A stretch of 32,956 nucleotides of DNA from a virus, in IMG/VR virus record IMGVR_UViG_3300048927_000284, positions 1 through 32,956 of that record. One strand, written 5' to 3'. The position numbers were made by a program, and so were the translations under genes. Each line of letters starts with the position of its first letter. Position 1 is the stretch's first letter. The notes beneath the pieces are model-generated. The model made no database searches. It was not told where the DNA came from and was given only the letters and a program-made list of their open reading frames with translations. Positions 2,101 to 23,714 of this stretch are shown one piece after another.

Positions 2101-3594
2101 TTATACGGTCCACGTGGACGCGAGCCCGTTCAGGACGCCGCTCATTAGAATGTGGCCCGCCGTGGACGGGTGCAGGCCGTCTGCCGTCAGGTAGTTGGCC
2201 GTGCCGTTCACTGCCCACTTGTCGGTATTGGTGGGGTCGCACACGGACGAGTTCAGATCGATGATGCCGTCGATGTTCCCGGCTACTACCTGCGACGGCA
2301 GCCATGCGTTGAACTGGCCGCGAACTTCGCTCGCGCCGTAGCCGGCCGAGACGGTTTGGTTTGCCAGCGTTGCCCAGCTGTCGGTCGATGTGGTTTTCGG
2401 CGTCAACGTGGTCTGATACACCTTGACTCCCATCCGTTTTGCAGCTGCCCACGCGACTTGAACGTTGGCTTGAAGCTGCGCCAGCGTGCGGCCCGCGGAG
2501 ATGTCGTTGATGCCCATCGCGAAAATGGCATGCGTCACGTACTCAAGCAAGCTCCAACGCGTGCCCTGGTAGCCGATGGCTGCAGATGACCAAGTCGCAG
2601 TGCTGTCTCCCGAGCGGGAAACATTGACGAACGGGATGTTTGTGCCCCCAGCGGCCGCGCCAACGAGACCACGTTCAGCCCAGCCGACATGGCCATAGGT
2701 CGTTTCTCCGTTGATTGCATCGCCAGTTCCGTACGTGATGCTATCGCCCCACAGCAGCGCCGCTGCATGGCGCTGGTCCGGAACCCCGATAACAGCCAGC
2801 GGTACAAAGCCGTAGGTAGCGTTCGTGCCGCCAGATGGCAGCGTCATGCCGGAACCGCTGTAGACCTGTGACGCGGCGGAGGTGCTGTCGTAACCGCCGT
2901 ATTGATACGAGGACGGCTGCCCGACAGGCACTTTCTGGCCGGCGGAAACCACGGCTGCACTCCGCAGCTGCAATTGCGCGTTGGCCGGCAGGTTGAGTCC
3001 TAGCTTGTCCGCCATGACAAACGGCGCACCCTGCCCGAGCAACGGATTTTTGAGGCCCCCGAACGTCAAGGGGAGCGGCTGGTTCCCCCACACAACGGCG
3101 CCTTCCAGCTGGAAGTCATTTGCGTTCGTCCAGTTTTCCCCGCCACCAATCGCAGACCTGTTGCAATACACGACTCGCAGGGAATTCACCGGACGCGGGC
3201 CGATTCGCACCCACAGATACGATTCGAATCGCGTGTAGTTCGATGCGCCCGCGCCTTCGACGTTGATCGGCATGCGGCCGCGTGTTGCGACAACCTGTAG
3301 GCGCGGCCCCGCCACCGGGGACGGCTGAACGTCGTTGCTCGGGTCGTTCAGGGTTATGTCGGTGATCGCCTGGCTGACAACCCCTTTGCCCGTGATGGTC
3401 AGCGTGTAGTGGCCGTCTGCAGCGTAGAAGGAGAAGCGCCCAGTGGTATCAGTCTTCACCGAAGCTACAGCCGAGCCACCGTCAGTAGCGTAGATCGTGG
3501 CCGGCTGGCCGCCTGGGTACGTGGTGACCGTGACAGTCAGGCCCGCAATCGGTTTGCCCTGCTTGTCGAGTACGACGTCGGAATACTTTTGCAT
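2101..3594 (-). CDS. Tailspike/tail fibre with SGNH esterase domain (copy A)
   Basis: The 497-residue protein begins with a transthyretin-like beta domain (residues about 5-72, Gly-Lys-Pro-Ile-Ala-Gly-Leu-Thr ... Asp-Gly-His-Tyr-Thr-Leu) that often anchors phage fibres, followed by a beta-rich middle. From about 278 an SGNH/GDSL hydrolase follows: Gly-Asp-Ser at 283-285 (nucleophile Ser285), block II Gly at about 329, Gly-Ile-Asn-Asp at 361-364 and Asp-Gly-Leu-His at 472-475 (Asp472, His475). All four catalytic blocks are intact. Related virion esterases remove O-acetyl groups from surface polysaccharide, and that role is inferred here. The start chosen is the Met whose ATG overlaps the upstream stop by one base; an ATG nine codons earlier would run into that gene. 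Confidence 0.82.
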   Translation of the reverse strand: MQKYSDVVLDKQGKPIAGLTVTVTTYPGGQPATIYATDGGSAVASVKTDTTGRFSFYAADGHYTLTITGKGVVSQAITDITLNDPSNDVQPSPVAGPRLQVVATRGRMPINVEGAGASNYTRFESYLWVRIGPRPVNSLRVVYCNRSAIGGGENWTNANDFQLEGAVVWGNQPLPLTFGGLKNPLLGQGAPFVMADKLGLNLPANAQLQLRSAAVVSAGQKVPVGQPSSYQYGGYDSTSAASQVYSGSGMTLPSGGTNATYGFVPLAVIGVPDQRHAAALLWGDSITYGTGDAINGETTYGHVGWAERGLVGAAAGGTNIPFVNVSRSGDSTATWSSAAIGYQGTRWSLLEYVTHAIFAMGINDISAGRTLAQLQANVQVAWAAAKRMGVKVYQTTLTPKTTSTDSWATLANQTVSAGYGASEVRGQFNAWLPSQVVAGNIDGIIDLNSSVCDPTNTDKWAVNGTANYLTADGLHPSTAGHILMSGVLNGLASTWTV

Positions 3595-21490: not shown

Positions 21491-21745
21491 TTAGGGAGAG
21501 GCGAGGCTCTTTAGCGAAGATCGACGGCGTGTCAACTCGGGCCAGATACGCTTCCAGTCCTCCGGGAAGAGTTCCTGGCGGGTCACGATTCCGCCCGTTG
21601 CACGCTCGATAGCGGCACCGTATTTGGTAGGAATTGGGCGTCCGCCTGCCAGCCAACGGCTGATGTCCGGAGCGTGCACGCCGATGGCTTTGGCTAATGC
21701 TGCTTTGCGGCCGCGCTGTTGAGAAAGGTAGGTAGACAGGTTCAT
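21491..21745 (-). CDS. Cro/YdaS-type early regulator
   Basis: The 84-residue protein has a Cro/YdaS helix-turn-helix at about 1-55: Met-Asn-Leu-Ser-Thr-Tyr-Leu-Ser-Gln-Gln-Arg-Gly-Arg-Lys-Ala-Ala-Leu-Ala-Lys-Ala, then Val-His-Ala-Pro-Asp-Ile-Ser-Arg-Trp-Leu-Ala-Gly-Gly-Arg-Pro-Ile-Pro and Ala-Ile-Glu-Arg-Ala-Thr-Gly-Gly-Ile-Val-Thr-Arg. It is the first leftward gene and diverges from the repressor gene, the standard Cro position, so it should oppose the repressor at the shared operators. No ribosome site precedes its ATG. The predicted transcription start falls on the A of the ATG, so the message appears leaderless at this gene. Confidence 0.85.
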   Translation of the reverse strand: MNLSTYLSQQRGRKAALAKAIGVHAPDISRWLAGGRPIPTKYGAAIERATGGIVTRQELFPEDWKRIWPELTRRRSSLKSLASP

Positions 21746-21751
21746 GCGTTT

Positions 21752-21780
21752 ATATTAGCCCAAGGCTAATGCAAACGCAA
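21752..21780 (-). promoter_or_regulatory. Leftward lytic promoter (pL-like)
   Basis: Read leftward, TTGCGT (21780-21775), a 17-bp spacer and TAATAT (21757-21752). Operator O1 covers most of the spacer and overlaps the -10 box, so bound repressor would block RNA polymerase. The rightward early promoter has the same structure. Confidence 0.8.
21754..21770. promoter_or_regulatory. Repressor operator O1 (perfect palindrome)
   Basis: ATTAGCC-CAA-GGCTAAT has perfect 7-bp arms. It lies inside the leftward promoter. The same site, read from the other strand, is repeated exactly at 23655-23671. Confidence 0.85.
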
Positions 21781-21787
21781 GTGATTG

Positions 21788-21804
21788 ATTAGCCAATGGC
21801 GAAT
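21788..21804. promoter_or_regulatory. Repressor operator O2
   Basis: ATTAGCC-AAT-GGCGAAT differs from the palindrome at one position in the right arm. Its centre is 34 bp from that of O1, just upstream of the leftward -35 box. Confidence 0.75.
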
Positions 21805-21820
21805 TCAGCCTATGGCAAAT
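21804..21820. promoter_or_regulatory. Repressor operator O3 (weak copy)
   Basis: TTCAGCC-TAT-GGCAAAT matches 5 of 7 and 6 of 7 arm positions. Its centre is 16 bp from that of O2. It overlaps the expected -35 region of the repressor promoter, so it could mediate self-repression or Cro control. Confidence 0.55.
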
Positions 21821-21828
21821 GTGACGTC

Positions 21829-21834
21829 TAATAC
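21829..21834 (+). promoter_or_regulatory. Candidate -10 of the repressor maintenance promoter
   Basis: TAATAC matches the -10 consensus in 5 of 6 positions, with no good -35 box, as in activator-dependent lambda pRM. The expected start is at or next to the ATG at 21839, implying a leaderless message. Confidence 0.5.
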
Positions 21835-21838
21835 ACGA

Positions 21839-22261
21839 ATGAAGAAAATTGAAGAGATCCGGCGCGATAATCTGCAGCGCCTGCGCGATGAGCTAGGGAG
21901 TGTGAAGCAGCTAGTCGAAGTGACCGGCAAGAGCCAGTCGCAGATCAGCCAATGGCTGAACGGATCCGCTCACTCGGTCACGGGGAAGCCGAGAGTAATA
22001 AGCAGCGGTGCTTGCAGGGAGATCGAGAAGGCGACCGGGAAGCCCGATGGATGGATGGATGTGGAACAAACGTCATTGACCCTAGTAGAGCCAACAGAGG
22101 TAACAGCCTTGCGTAGGCTGCTTAACGAAACCTCATCTGAAATCCGCCTTCTTTCGGTGTATCGGCTTGCGAGCGCGGACCAGCGGGAACTGATAGACGG
22201 TGCCGTTAGACTCGTGATCGAGCAGCTCGACATCCCTGCTTTCCTCAGTGTTCGCAAGTGA
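21839..22261 (+). CDS. Prophage repressor lacking an S24 peptidase domain
   Basis: The 140-residue protein has an N-terminal repressor DNA-binding domain (about 1-73): Arg-Arg-Asp-Asn-Leu-Gln-Arg-Leu-Arg-Asp-Glu, then Ser-Gln-Ser-Gln-Ile-Ser-Gln-Trp-Leu-Asn-Gly-Ser and Glu-Ile-Glu-Lys-Ala-Thr-Gly-Lys-Pro-Asp-Gly-Trp-Met-Asp, the signature of CI-like repressors of betaproteobacterial prophages. In those relatives a LexA-like S24 peptidase follows. Here there is only a ~65-residue helical tail (Leu-Leu-Ser-Val-Tyr-Arg-Leu-Ala-Ser-Ala-Asp-Gln-Arg-Glu-Leu) with no Ser/Lys catalytic pair, so it cannot self-cleave. The start is set by the TAATAC box and lack of ribosome sites; Met at 21785 or 21812 would overlap operators. 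Its 3' end overlaps a convergent gene by 129 bp. Confidence 0.85.
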   Translation: MKKIEEIRRDNLQRLRDELGSVKQLVEVTGKSQSQISQWLNGSAHSVTGKPRVISSGACREIEKATGKPDGWMDVEQTSLTLVEPTEVTALRRLLNETSSEIRLLSVYRLASADQRELIDGAVRLVIEQLDIPAFLSVRK

Positions 22262-22378
22262 CACGCTTGCTTCTCCTGGGAAGCTGCGCAAGAGCTGCCG
22301 GGCCATGCCGAGCAAGTAGCTCCGGCCAGCCTCGCTCATCATTGAGTACATCGTTTCGATCTCTGGAAGGTTGTTCAT
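22133..22378 (-). CDS. Candidate SOS-controlled antirepressor (convergent with repressor)
   Basis: The 81-residue protein starts Met-Asn-Asn-Leu-Pro-Glu-Ile-Glu-Thr-Met-Tyr with AGAGG five bases upstream. Its first half is a helical unit (Met-Met-Ser-Glu-Ala-Gly-Arg-Ser-Tyr-Leu-Leu-Gly-Met-Ala-Arg-Gln-Leu-Leu); the second half is antisense to the repressor tail and ends basic (Arg-Lys-Pro-Ile-His-Arg-Lys-Lys-Ala-Asp-Phe-Arg). A perfect LexA-type box lies about 58 bp upstream of the start. Small SOS-driven proteins that inactivate a non-cleavable repressor are known (186 Tum, Gifsy antirepressors), and this gene has the right position, size and control. That function is inference: no homology was seen, and a purely antisense role is possible. 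Confidence 0.6.
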   Translation of the reverse strand: MNNLPEIETMYSMMSEAGRSYLLGMARQLLRSFPGEASVSLANTEESRDVELLDHESNGTVYQFPLVRARKPIHRKKADFR

Positions 22379-22410
22379 ACTGACCTCTGGCAACTAACGC
22401 TGTTGTAGTT

Positions 22411-22432
22411 TTCAATGCTGTTCCGCATTGAA
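22411..22432. repeat. Inverted repeat beside the LexA box
   Basis: Perfect arms TTCAATGC and GCATTGAA are separated by 6 bp; flanking GTAG/CTAC can extend the stem around a TT bulge. It lies between the SOS box and the candidate antirepressor start and could be a second operator or a leader-RNA hairpin. Confidence 0.7.
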
Positions 22433-22456
22433 CTACTGTACACCCATACAGTAGTT
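22431..22456. promoter_or_regulatory. LexA/SOS box in a perfect inverted repeat
   Basis: Ten-base arms AACTACTGTA and TACAGTAGTT flank 6 bp. The inner part is CTGT-N8-ACAG (22436-22451) with TA flanks on both sides, matching the LexA consensus TACTGTA...TACAGTA at every conserved base. No clear promoter could be assigned on either strand, but the nearest downstream gene is the candidate antirepressor on the minus strand. Confidence 0.85.
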
Positions 22457-22654
22457 AACGCTAGCATTCGGACATGAATCCATTGAAGTCCGGCAATTAA
22501 TATAGACCCACTGTATGTACTTACGCTACCTCCAATCGTATGTTTCGCGGGTTACGACCGCTACAGAAGCTGATACGTCACACTTTCTCATAGTGGCCGA
22601 ATCTGAGGCGGACGGCAGAATGTGACAAGCTCTGGTGTTGTTTTTCTGTGGTGT
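22457..22654. other. Non-coding gap between SOS box and Arc-like gene
   Basis: No credible gene is seen on either strand: the one short minus frame (22526-22720) has no ribosome site and unlike composition. The stretch is A+T-richer than its surroundings and probably holds the promoter of the Arc-like gene, which I could not place. Confidence 0.5.
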
Positions 22655-22688: not shown

Positions 22689-22709
22689 ATCGCGCAACAA
22701 TCGCGCGAT
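22689..22709. repeat. Inverted repeat at the Arc-like start codon
   Basis: ATCGCGC-AACAATC-GCGCGAT has perfect 7-bp arms, the right arm running into the ATG. It could be a second operator or an RNA stem that hides the start. No ribosome site is present here. Confidence 0.55.
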
Positions 22710-22932
22710 GGAAAATTCAAGCAAATCGAAGAGGAGTCAGCGAACCTTGCGCTTGCCTCCAGACCTACAAAAAGAGATTGATGAAGCCGCTGCGCTGGCG
22801 GGTCATTCTGCTAACGAAGAGATCGTGCGGCGCCTTCGGGCGTTTGCTCAGTCGGCCAGCCTGGCGGACATCATCAAGCAGAATGCCGAGCTGAGGCGAA
22901 TGCTGCAGCAGCTGATAGACCGGCAGGGATGA
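22708..22932 (+). CDS. Arc/Mnt-like ribbon-helix-helix regulator
   Basis: The 74-residue protein reads Lys-Arg-Ser-Gln-Arg-Thr-Leu-Arg-Leu-Pro-Pro-Asp-Leu at the N-terminus (the DNA-contacting beta strand), then two helices (Glu-Ile-Asp-Glu-Ala-Ala-Ala-Leu-Ala-Gly and Ser-Ala-Asn-Glu-Glu-Ile-Val-Arg-Arg-Leu), the Arc pattern, plus a C-terminal coiled-coil-like tail (Asn-Ala-Glu-Leu-Arg-Arg-Met-Leu-Gln-Gln-Leu). Arc and Mnt of P22 regulate immunity genes, including an antirepressor, so a role at the neighbouring switch is attractive. The stop TGA overlaps the start region of the lipoprotein gene, so the two are co-expressed. Confidence 0.82.
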   Translation: MENSSKSKRSQRTLRLPPDLQKEIDEAAALAGHSANEEIVRRLRAFAQSASLADIIKQNAELRRMLQQLIDRQG

Positions 22933-22934
22933 GT

Positions 22935-23501
22935 ATGAAAAAGATTGTTTTGATCGGATTGGTTGCAACTTTGGCAGCCTGCGCGACGCCGCAACGGGAG
23001 ACCCGAAAGTTTCTTACGCAAGAGCGCGCGATCGCAAAAACTTGTCTTGCTCCTACCTCGAGCATGACAGCCGAGCAGCGTTTCACTGTAGACCCAGTGA
23101 CGCACAAATCGCCTATGACGGGCTTCGTGAACTGTTACTCGAATGAGGTGCTTACGGTAGCGAACATGATGCAGTACGCCCGCTTGGACATCGTCTACGC
23201 TTACCTTGGATACCTCGAGAGGCTTACGCAAGCCATGGACTCTGGAAGCATCGATACGCCGGCTGCGCTTTCATCCTTCAGACAGACCTCCAAAGCGTTT
23301 ACCGATTCGCTGGCCGCGGCCGATGCCCAGCAATCGGCACAGGAGACTCAGGCCCGACGAGACTTCGCTGATCGTCTAGCGGCTTTCGCCACCGTCATGG
23401 CAGCAGCTGACCGCCAGCGCGCTGCAGAGGCAGCAGCACGACGCCCCGTCGTGTGTACGTCGAGCGGCGTATACGTGCAGAACACAGTCGTCTGCCAGTA
23501 A
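22935..23501 (+). CDS. Lipoprotein, possible lysogenic-conversion protein
   Basis: The ~188-residue protein has a lipoprotein signal: Met-Lys-Lys-Ile-Val-Leu-Ile-Gly-Leu-Val-Ala-Thr-Leu-Ala-Ala-Cys, with Cys16 as the lipidated residue. The mature part is helical with a long Ala/Gln/Arg-rich coiled coil (about 115-165) and four further Cys, including two near the C-terminus. An ATG six bases earlier overlaps the preceding stop; the chosen one has AGGGA at better spacing. It is followed by a terminator. A rightward two-gene unit in the immunity region, active apart from lytic promoters, is typical of genes expressed by the lysogen; surface lipoproteins in that position often block superinfection. 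That role is inference. Confidence 0.78.
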   Translation: MKKIVLIGLVATLAACATPQRETRKFLTQERAIAKTCLAPTSSMTAEQRFTVDPVTHKSPMTGFVNCYSNEVLTVANMMQYARLDIVYAYLGYLERLTQAMDSGSIDTPAALSSFRQTSKAFTDSLAAADAQQSAQETQARRDFADRLAAFATVMAAADRQRAAEAAARRPVVCTSSGVYVQNTVVCQ

Positions 23502-23620: not shown

Positions 23621-23637
23621 ATTAGCCTTTGGCGCAA
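23621..23637. promoter_or_regulatory. Repressor operator of the rightward region (imperfect)
   Basis: ATTAGCC-TTT-GGCGCAA: left arm perfect, right arm matching in part. Its centre is 34 bp from the perfect operator, the same spacing as O1-O2. Confidence 0.65.
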
Positions 23638-23644
23638 ATAGTTC

Positions 23645-23673
23645 TTGCGCGTCGATTAGCCTTGGGCTAATAT
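23645..23673 (+). promoter_or_regulatory. Rightward lytic promoter (pR-like)
   Basis: TTGCGC, exactly 17 bp, TAATAT; transcription should start near 23680. The spacer and -10 box contain the perfect operator. The last 21 bp through the -10 box and two further bases are identical to the leftward promoter. Confidence 0.82.
23655..23671. promoter_or_regulatory. Repressor operator of the rightward promoter (perfect)
   Basis: ATTAGCC-TTG-GGCTAAT is the same 17-mer as O1 read on the other strand. It overlaps the spacer and -10 box, so repressor binding would shut off the rightward operon. Confidence 0.85.
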
Positions 23674-23714
23674 AACTCCATCGAAACACAGCCGGCAGGG
23701 CGATGGAGAACACG

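Follow-up and report, generated by a model that had tools for sequence, protein, structure and literature searches.

The window, i.e. the whole stretch of DNA analysed here (32,956 bp), represents a temperate phage with a podovirus-like portal, terminase, head genes and an integrase. Searches with the terminase and with the A2 and A6 profiles did not yield a convincing host in 300 sampled Burkholderiales genomes or in 369 genomes sampled at the class level. A divergent Cro/YdaS-like gene and inverted operator pairs frame a lambda-like OL/OR immunity region, which contains the repressor gene, a small gene on the opposite strand, an Arc-like gene and a lipoprotein-like gene. The features are as follows.

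21491-21745, minus strand: divergent Cro/YdaS-like gene (PF15943, E 6e-14)
21754-21804: left operator pair of the ATTAGCCnnnGGCTAAT type (inverted repeat I1)
about 21812-22261, plus strand: HTH repressor gene without S24 peptidase (149 aa; start at 21785, 21812 or 21839)
22094-22225, plus strand: C-terminal helices 95-138 of the repressor (AlphaFold2), proposed as target by analogy to phage SPC32H
22133-22378, minus strand: candidate antirepressor gene of 81 codons (ATG at 22378, stop at 22133) with homologs in relatives
22133-22261: antisense overlap of small gene and repressor gene, 129 bp, identical in length in 6/6 window-type relatives
22283-22369, minus strand: codes for residues 4-32, a conserved helical hairpin, and lies outside the overlap (AlphaFold2 and alignment A6)
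22431-22456: LexA-type box, a perfect 10+6+10 palindrome with the core CTGT-N8-ACAG at 22436-22451
22459-22464, minus strand: CTAGCG, possibly part of a promoter, 7 bp upstream of the core
22708-22932: Arc-like ribbon-helix-helix gene (Pfam and PHROG matches)
23621-23675: right operator pair, repeating the left one in inverted orientation (55 nt; 75% complementarity with 21750-21804)

The Arc-like gene is followed by the lipoprotein-like gene (22708-23501). A similar pair adjoins the switch in locus L155, and lipoprotein homologs are also present in L077 and L078.

The repressor matches the transcriptional repressor family phrog_12107 (E 1.6e-21); its HTH matches are weak. A previous sequence-only reading had stated that it lacks the S24 peptidase of its relatives, and the Pfam search agrees: Peptidase_S24 is absent from the window repressor, while it is recognised (PF00717, 7e-15 and 3e-17) in relatives that combine S24 with the same HTH. 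The best fold match is Rep of Salmonella phage SPC32H, whose structure was solved as a complex with the antirepressor Ant (5d50, Foldseek E 2e-4). Sequence homology to Rep (E 1.7e-10) comprises the HTH part only; clear homology does not extend to the C-terminal domain. AlphaFold2 predicts three helices in the tail of the window repressor (95-106, 109-119 and 122-138). In PDB, the tail profile matched an NSP4 coiled coil and the repressor profile matched armadillo repeats; both matches were put down to chance.

The small gene converges on the repressor gene and its stop codon lies inside the repressor 3’ end, so that the previously described 81-codon gene pointing at and overlapping the repressor gene is found as described. 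A direct homology search of phages and IMG/VR with the 81-aa protein gave no relatives at first; these were reached via terminase neighbours and subsequently by alignments. In seven sequences the non-overlapping core of 29 codons is free of in-frame stops and shows a pooled pS of 0.80 and a pN of 0.185 (pN/pS 0.23). As judged from these seven sequences, purifying selection acts on the gene outside the overlap, and the gene encodes a conserved protein. AlphaFold2 predicts two helices (4-13 and 16-32, pLDDT 75-86), and the C-terminal half, which is the part encoded in the overlap, is poorly defined. No credible match to the small protein was obtained in Pfam, PHROG, PDB sequences or PDB folds, in line with the earlier remark that it shows no recognisable resemblance. 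Likewise, profile A6 gave no credible E-value against the SPC32H antirepressor Ant in 5d50 or any other PDB chain, and Foldseek gave no match. The motif LARLYQAIDDAGRDTLLAFARFLA of a chromosomal ORF (L228:1249-1665, minus strand) resembles the hairpin and may reflect a host origin of this fold or just a generic helical hairpin. As a host match this ORF was dismissed, being chromosomal with neither box nor phage repressor around.

Beyond the repressor 3’ end the palindrome reads AACTACTGTA-CACCCA-TACAGTAGTT with 10/10 complementary arms, exactly the perfect box noticed before. The spacing to the ATG of the small gene, given previously as ~58 bp, is 52 bp if counted from the outer end of the palindrome and 57 bp if counted from its CTGT core. 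The exact motif occurs once in the 32,956-bp window (0.39 expected window-wide by shuffling). Its density in 944 kb of related phage loci is 0.0117 per kb, hence only ~0.004 boxes are expected within ~350 bp past the repressor. The LexA motif of E. coli reads CTGT-N8-ACAG (PMC8565304) and may differ from the consensus in the host of the window. A confident sigma-70 consensus match was not found at the box. The same box pattern is located upstream of a SulA-family gene in a Halioglobus MAG; the box scan of genome contigs otherwise mostly returned chromosomal loci.

Window-type relatives were collected with a repressor profile that is blind to the box. Six loci share the repressor tail (L183-L188), and homologs of the small protein are present in L155/L183, L184, L185, L186/L080, L187 and L188. 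L080, which was reached via terminase relatives, carries both genes (57% and 67% identity). In 6/6 window-type relatives the small gene is convergent and the 3’ overlap is exactly 129 bp, and in 5/6 CTGT-N8-ACAG is found 166-345 bp beyond the repressor stop. L080/L186 keeps the small gene without the box, hence LexA control would not be universal. The same search gave eight further loci, namely four with a different tail and no S24, three of the S24 type and one remote, and these show neither box nor such a small gene (0/8). The three S24-type loci were called by length and sequence, two of them being confirmed by Pfam. Box and small gene are associated with the repressor type (Fisher’s exact P 0.003, to be taken as a guide only since the loci are related). 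The box thus accompanies repressors that have the small gene as partner and is missing beside relatives of the S24 type, which supports the reading as a candidate switch. By comparison of these loci, the recurrence of box core, overlap and reading frame on separate contigs of related phages is beyond chance. Repressor, box and small gene travel together across related phages, as expected from the compact unit that had been suggested. A distant S24-less repressor is encoded by Pseudomonas hollowayvirus CF63a (L001) and has GCGTTnCGCTA-type operator repeats on both sides (L001:2370-2510 and about 3150-3220). An exact CTGT-N8-ACAG was not detected within this 5.4-kb locus.

Read on the strand of the small gene, the core CTGTATGGGTGTACAG is the same in the window as in L183, L185, L187 and the A-type loci L177, L178, L180 and L181 (see below for type A). 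Among the 11 boxed window- and A-type loci the outer arms and flanks drift and the core is retained, with box-to-ATG distances of 30-225 bp. CTAGCG is found at about the same position in 11/11 of these loci. One could argue that the palindrome is not a LexA site at all and instead serves as operator of a phage regulator, e.g. the Arc-like protein (22708-22932), or as a terminator hairpin. It can be folded as a 10-bp hairpin, it matches the motif of E. coli and not necessarily that of the host, and the box-less small gene of L080 is preceded by another palindrome (TTGTCA-AACAC-TGACAA, L080:1110-1150), which hints at a different trigger there. However, a T-run is missing, and in L183, L184, L187 and L188 the outer arms are unpaired yet the core CTGT-N8-ACAG is kept. 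Loss of arm pairing with retention of the core favours an operator for a LexA-type protein over a hairpin, and the hairpin or terminator reading was rejected since relatives have not preserved the outer arms. Moreover, phages with unrelated regulators, including Burkholderia phage KS9, keep the same core, and this core is the E. coli LexA motif. We thus consider a non-LexA palindrome very improbable. By sequence, a LexA-type operator precedes the candidate antirepressor gene.

Scanning IMG/VR with CTACTGTA-N6-TACAGTAG returned 72 loci. Of these, 17 (not all independent) have the box upstream of a small gene converging on a short HTH repressor. The small proteins fall into group A (67-82 aa, hairpin pattern as in the window) and group B (about 95-114 aa, pattern ‘LRCRPGDLARVV’). 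A profile of the A-type protein found seven loci, all with the box (7/7). A protein search with family B led to the Burkholderia phages KS9, Magia, Bcep176 and BgManors32, and all four of these cultured phages show the box upstream of the gene and a convergent short repressor. Their family-B genes are annotated as hypothetical or unnamed. In KS9, inactivation had shown gp41 to be the repressor (J Virol 2010, as cited in PMC3091744). Judging from the protein sequences, family B is unrelated to the small-protein family of the window yet fills the same slot.

Family B was detected in 54/299 Burkholderiaceae genomes, and 32 genes on 30 loci were inspected. Most of them (27/32) converge on a short repressor, and the exact box is present in 26 of these 27, mostly 36-73 bp upstream of the protein match. 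It is absent from all five genes without convergent repressor (0/5; P 3e-5 with relatedness ignored). Most family-B gene/repressor pairs overlap as well, and Peptidase_S24 was found in 0/24 representative convergent repressors. Based on these loci, the same layout is found in many Burkholderia-family prophages. L205 and L206 (Burkholderiaceae chromosomes) carry tandem family-B genes with neither convergent repressor nor box. A third box-controlled small gene of 68-84 aa was observed in L013, L015, L054, L064, L065 and L164; it may be another antirepressor or a Tum-like gene. In L013 it belongs to phrog_5581. The phages carry a P2-like portal gene, and several have a small zinc-finger-like gene close by.

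A gene under SOS control next to the repressor does not have to act on it. It could be an accessory, e.g. a modulator of RecA, of cell division or of host defence, that never contacts the repressor. Other small phage genes controlled by LexA do exist, such as the dinI homologs of the Gifsy phages (PMC3121763), and a few family-B genes are located away from any convergent repressor (L205, L206, L226). Such free copies are without box, however. Both families are tightly linked to S24-less repressors and the gene is absent from all S24-type relatives, so that we regard an accessory as unlikely.

The antisense arrangement itself offers another explanation, namely that the SOS transcript lowers repressor synthesis by pairing or by transcription collision while the protein is secondary. 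The small gene runs into the repressor gene with the constant 3’ overlap of the window-type relatives, and the frequent overlaps in family B point the same way. On the other hand, selection acts at the protein level on the non-overlapping core, and two unrelated proteins occupy the slot, as expected were the protein the agent. Moreover, repressor made beforehand would persist and reduced synthesis would seemingly act slowly. An antisense switch is therefore quite unlikely in our view.

The repressors of the window type and of L060 have a common tail (‘VYRLA....R..ID’) with different HTH domains. Similarly, several HTH types are combined with two main tails among the repressors of family B. This suggests, on the level of sequence, that tail and small gene travel as one cassette. 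Since tail and small gene share DNA on opposite strands, they are in part bound to be inherited together, and joint inheritance alone does not prove contact. Whether there is an exchangeable immunity cassette, in which different HTH domains are joined to a few common tails, each with an SOS-controlled, antisense-encoded antirepressor, and which comprises at least two unrelated families (window/A and B) across proteobacterial prophages, appears evenly balanced to us. If so, any HTH repressor would acquire an SOS trigger through a swap of the cassette.

Taken together, we consider it probable that a small protein controlled by LexA inactivates a non-cleavable repressor. In the lysogen the HTH repressor (21812-22261) would hold both inverted operator sets (21754-21804 and 23621-23675) and LexA would hold the box at 22431-22456. 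Upon DNA damage RecA* would cleave LexA and spare the repressor because it has no peptidase domain. The freed promoter would then be transcribed leftward, giving rise to the 81-aa protein, whose N-terminal helical hairpin may bind the repressor. The C-terminal helices 95-138 are the most likely target since the C-terminal domain of SPC32H Rep binds its antirepressor. Binding of the hairpin would break the oligomer required for operator binding, leading to expression of the lytic genes. LexA binding, SOS induction, contact of the two proteins and the effect on prophage induction are what we infer here.

Many temperate phages have short repressors that are not cleavable by RecA, and how they sense DNA damage is mostly unexplained. 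An S24-less repressor with a convergent, overlapping small gene and an upstream CTGT-N8-ACAG box could serve as a signature predicting the trigger. As the signature is present in cultured Burkholderia phages including KS9, the idea is directly testable. Hypothetical genes in many prophages could get names.

In SinI/SinR of Bacillus, a small antirepressor with a helical hairpin acts on an HTH repressor whose C-terminus likewise forms a helical hairpin. The predicted shapes of small protein and repressor tail are similar here, with hairpin helices of 10 and 17 residues versus 11 and 17 in the repressor tail; SinI/SinR however is neither LexA-controlled nor a phage system. In a comparison of small protein and repressor tail, hhalign gave a probability of 1.8% (P 0.027) and HMM scores were not above those of shuffled tails. 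A SinI-like mimicry of the repressor tail is thus unsupported by these tests and stays a lead.

For the nearest relative of the repressor, SPC32H Rep, a solved antirepressor is known, namely Ant. The C-terminal domain of Rep forms a tetramer and binds Ant (PMC9986798), which breaks the tetramer (PMC9638917). Both systems have an S24-less repressor with a homologous HTH, and in SPC32H a small antirepressor acts on the C-terminal oligomerization domain. In contrast, no relationship was detected between Ant and the small protein of the window, and ant is located ~14 kb from rep whereas the small gene overlaps the repressor gene. Gifsy GftA and GfoA are small LexA-controlled antirepressors of a non-cleavable repressor (PMC3121763), and the small-protein family searches did not reveal sequence similarity to them. 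Their genes lie outside the immunity region, in an operon under LexA control that also comprises homologs of dinI and irsA (PMC3121763). Hence the parallel to 186 Tum and Gifsy drawn by the sequence-only reading holds for the logic but not for the geometry. Tum of phage 186 and AntC of N15 are SOS-regulated antirepressors of the phage repressor, as cited in PMC10432266. As proteins they differ from the one described here. TF-smORF modules (VP882 Qtip, smORF72) likewise employ small, non-homologous antirepressors, each with its own repressor (PMC10432266, PMC11323111). They are controlled by a phage transcription factor independently of SOS, and their repressors include cleavable ones. Our region includes an Arc-like gene (22708-22932), but it is a LexA-type box that the promoter of the small gene carries.

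Based on these comparisons, no known antirepressor is related in sequence to the small protein, and the protein families found in this slot carry no annotation. Its gene is located inside the immunity region, convergent and overlapping in antisense, whereas the antirepressor genes of Gifsy and SPC32H are far from the repressor. The genes of 186 Tum and N15 AntC are not known to converge on or overlap the repressor gene. Literature searches in open-licence papers did not yield a published description of this layout, consistent with the earlier notion that it may be undescribed. The logic of a LexA-controlled antirepressor is known from 186 Tum, Gifsy and N15 and a solved antirepressor from SPC32H Ant; the small proteins and the antisense-overlapping geometry appear to be new.
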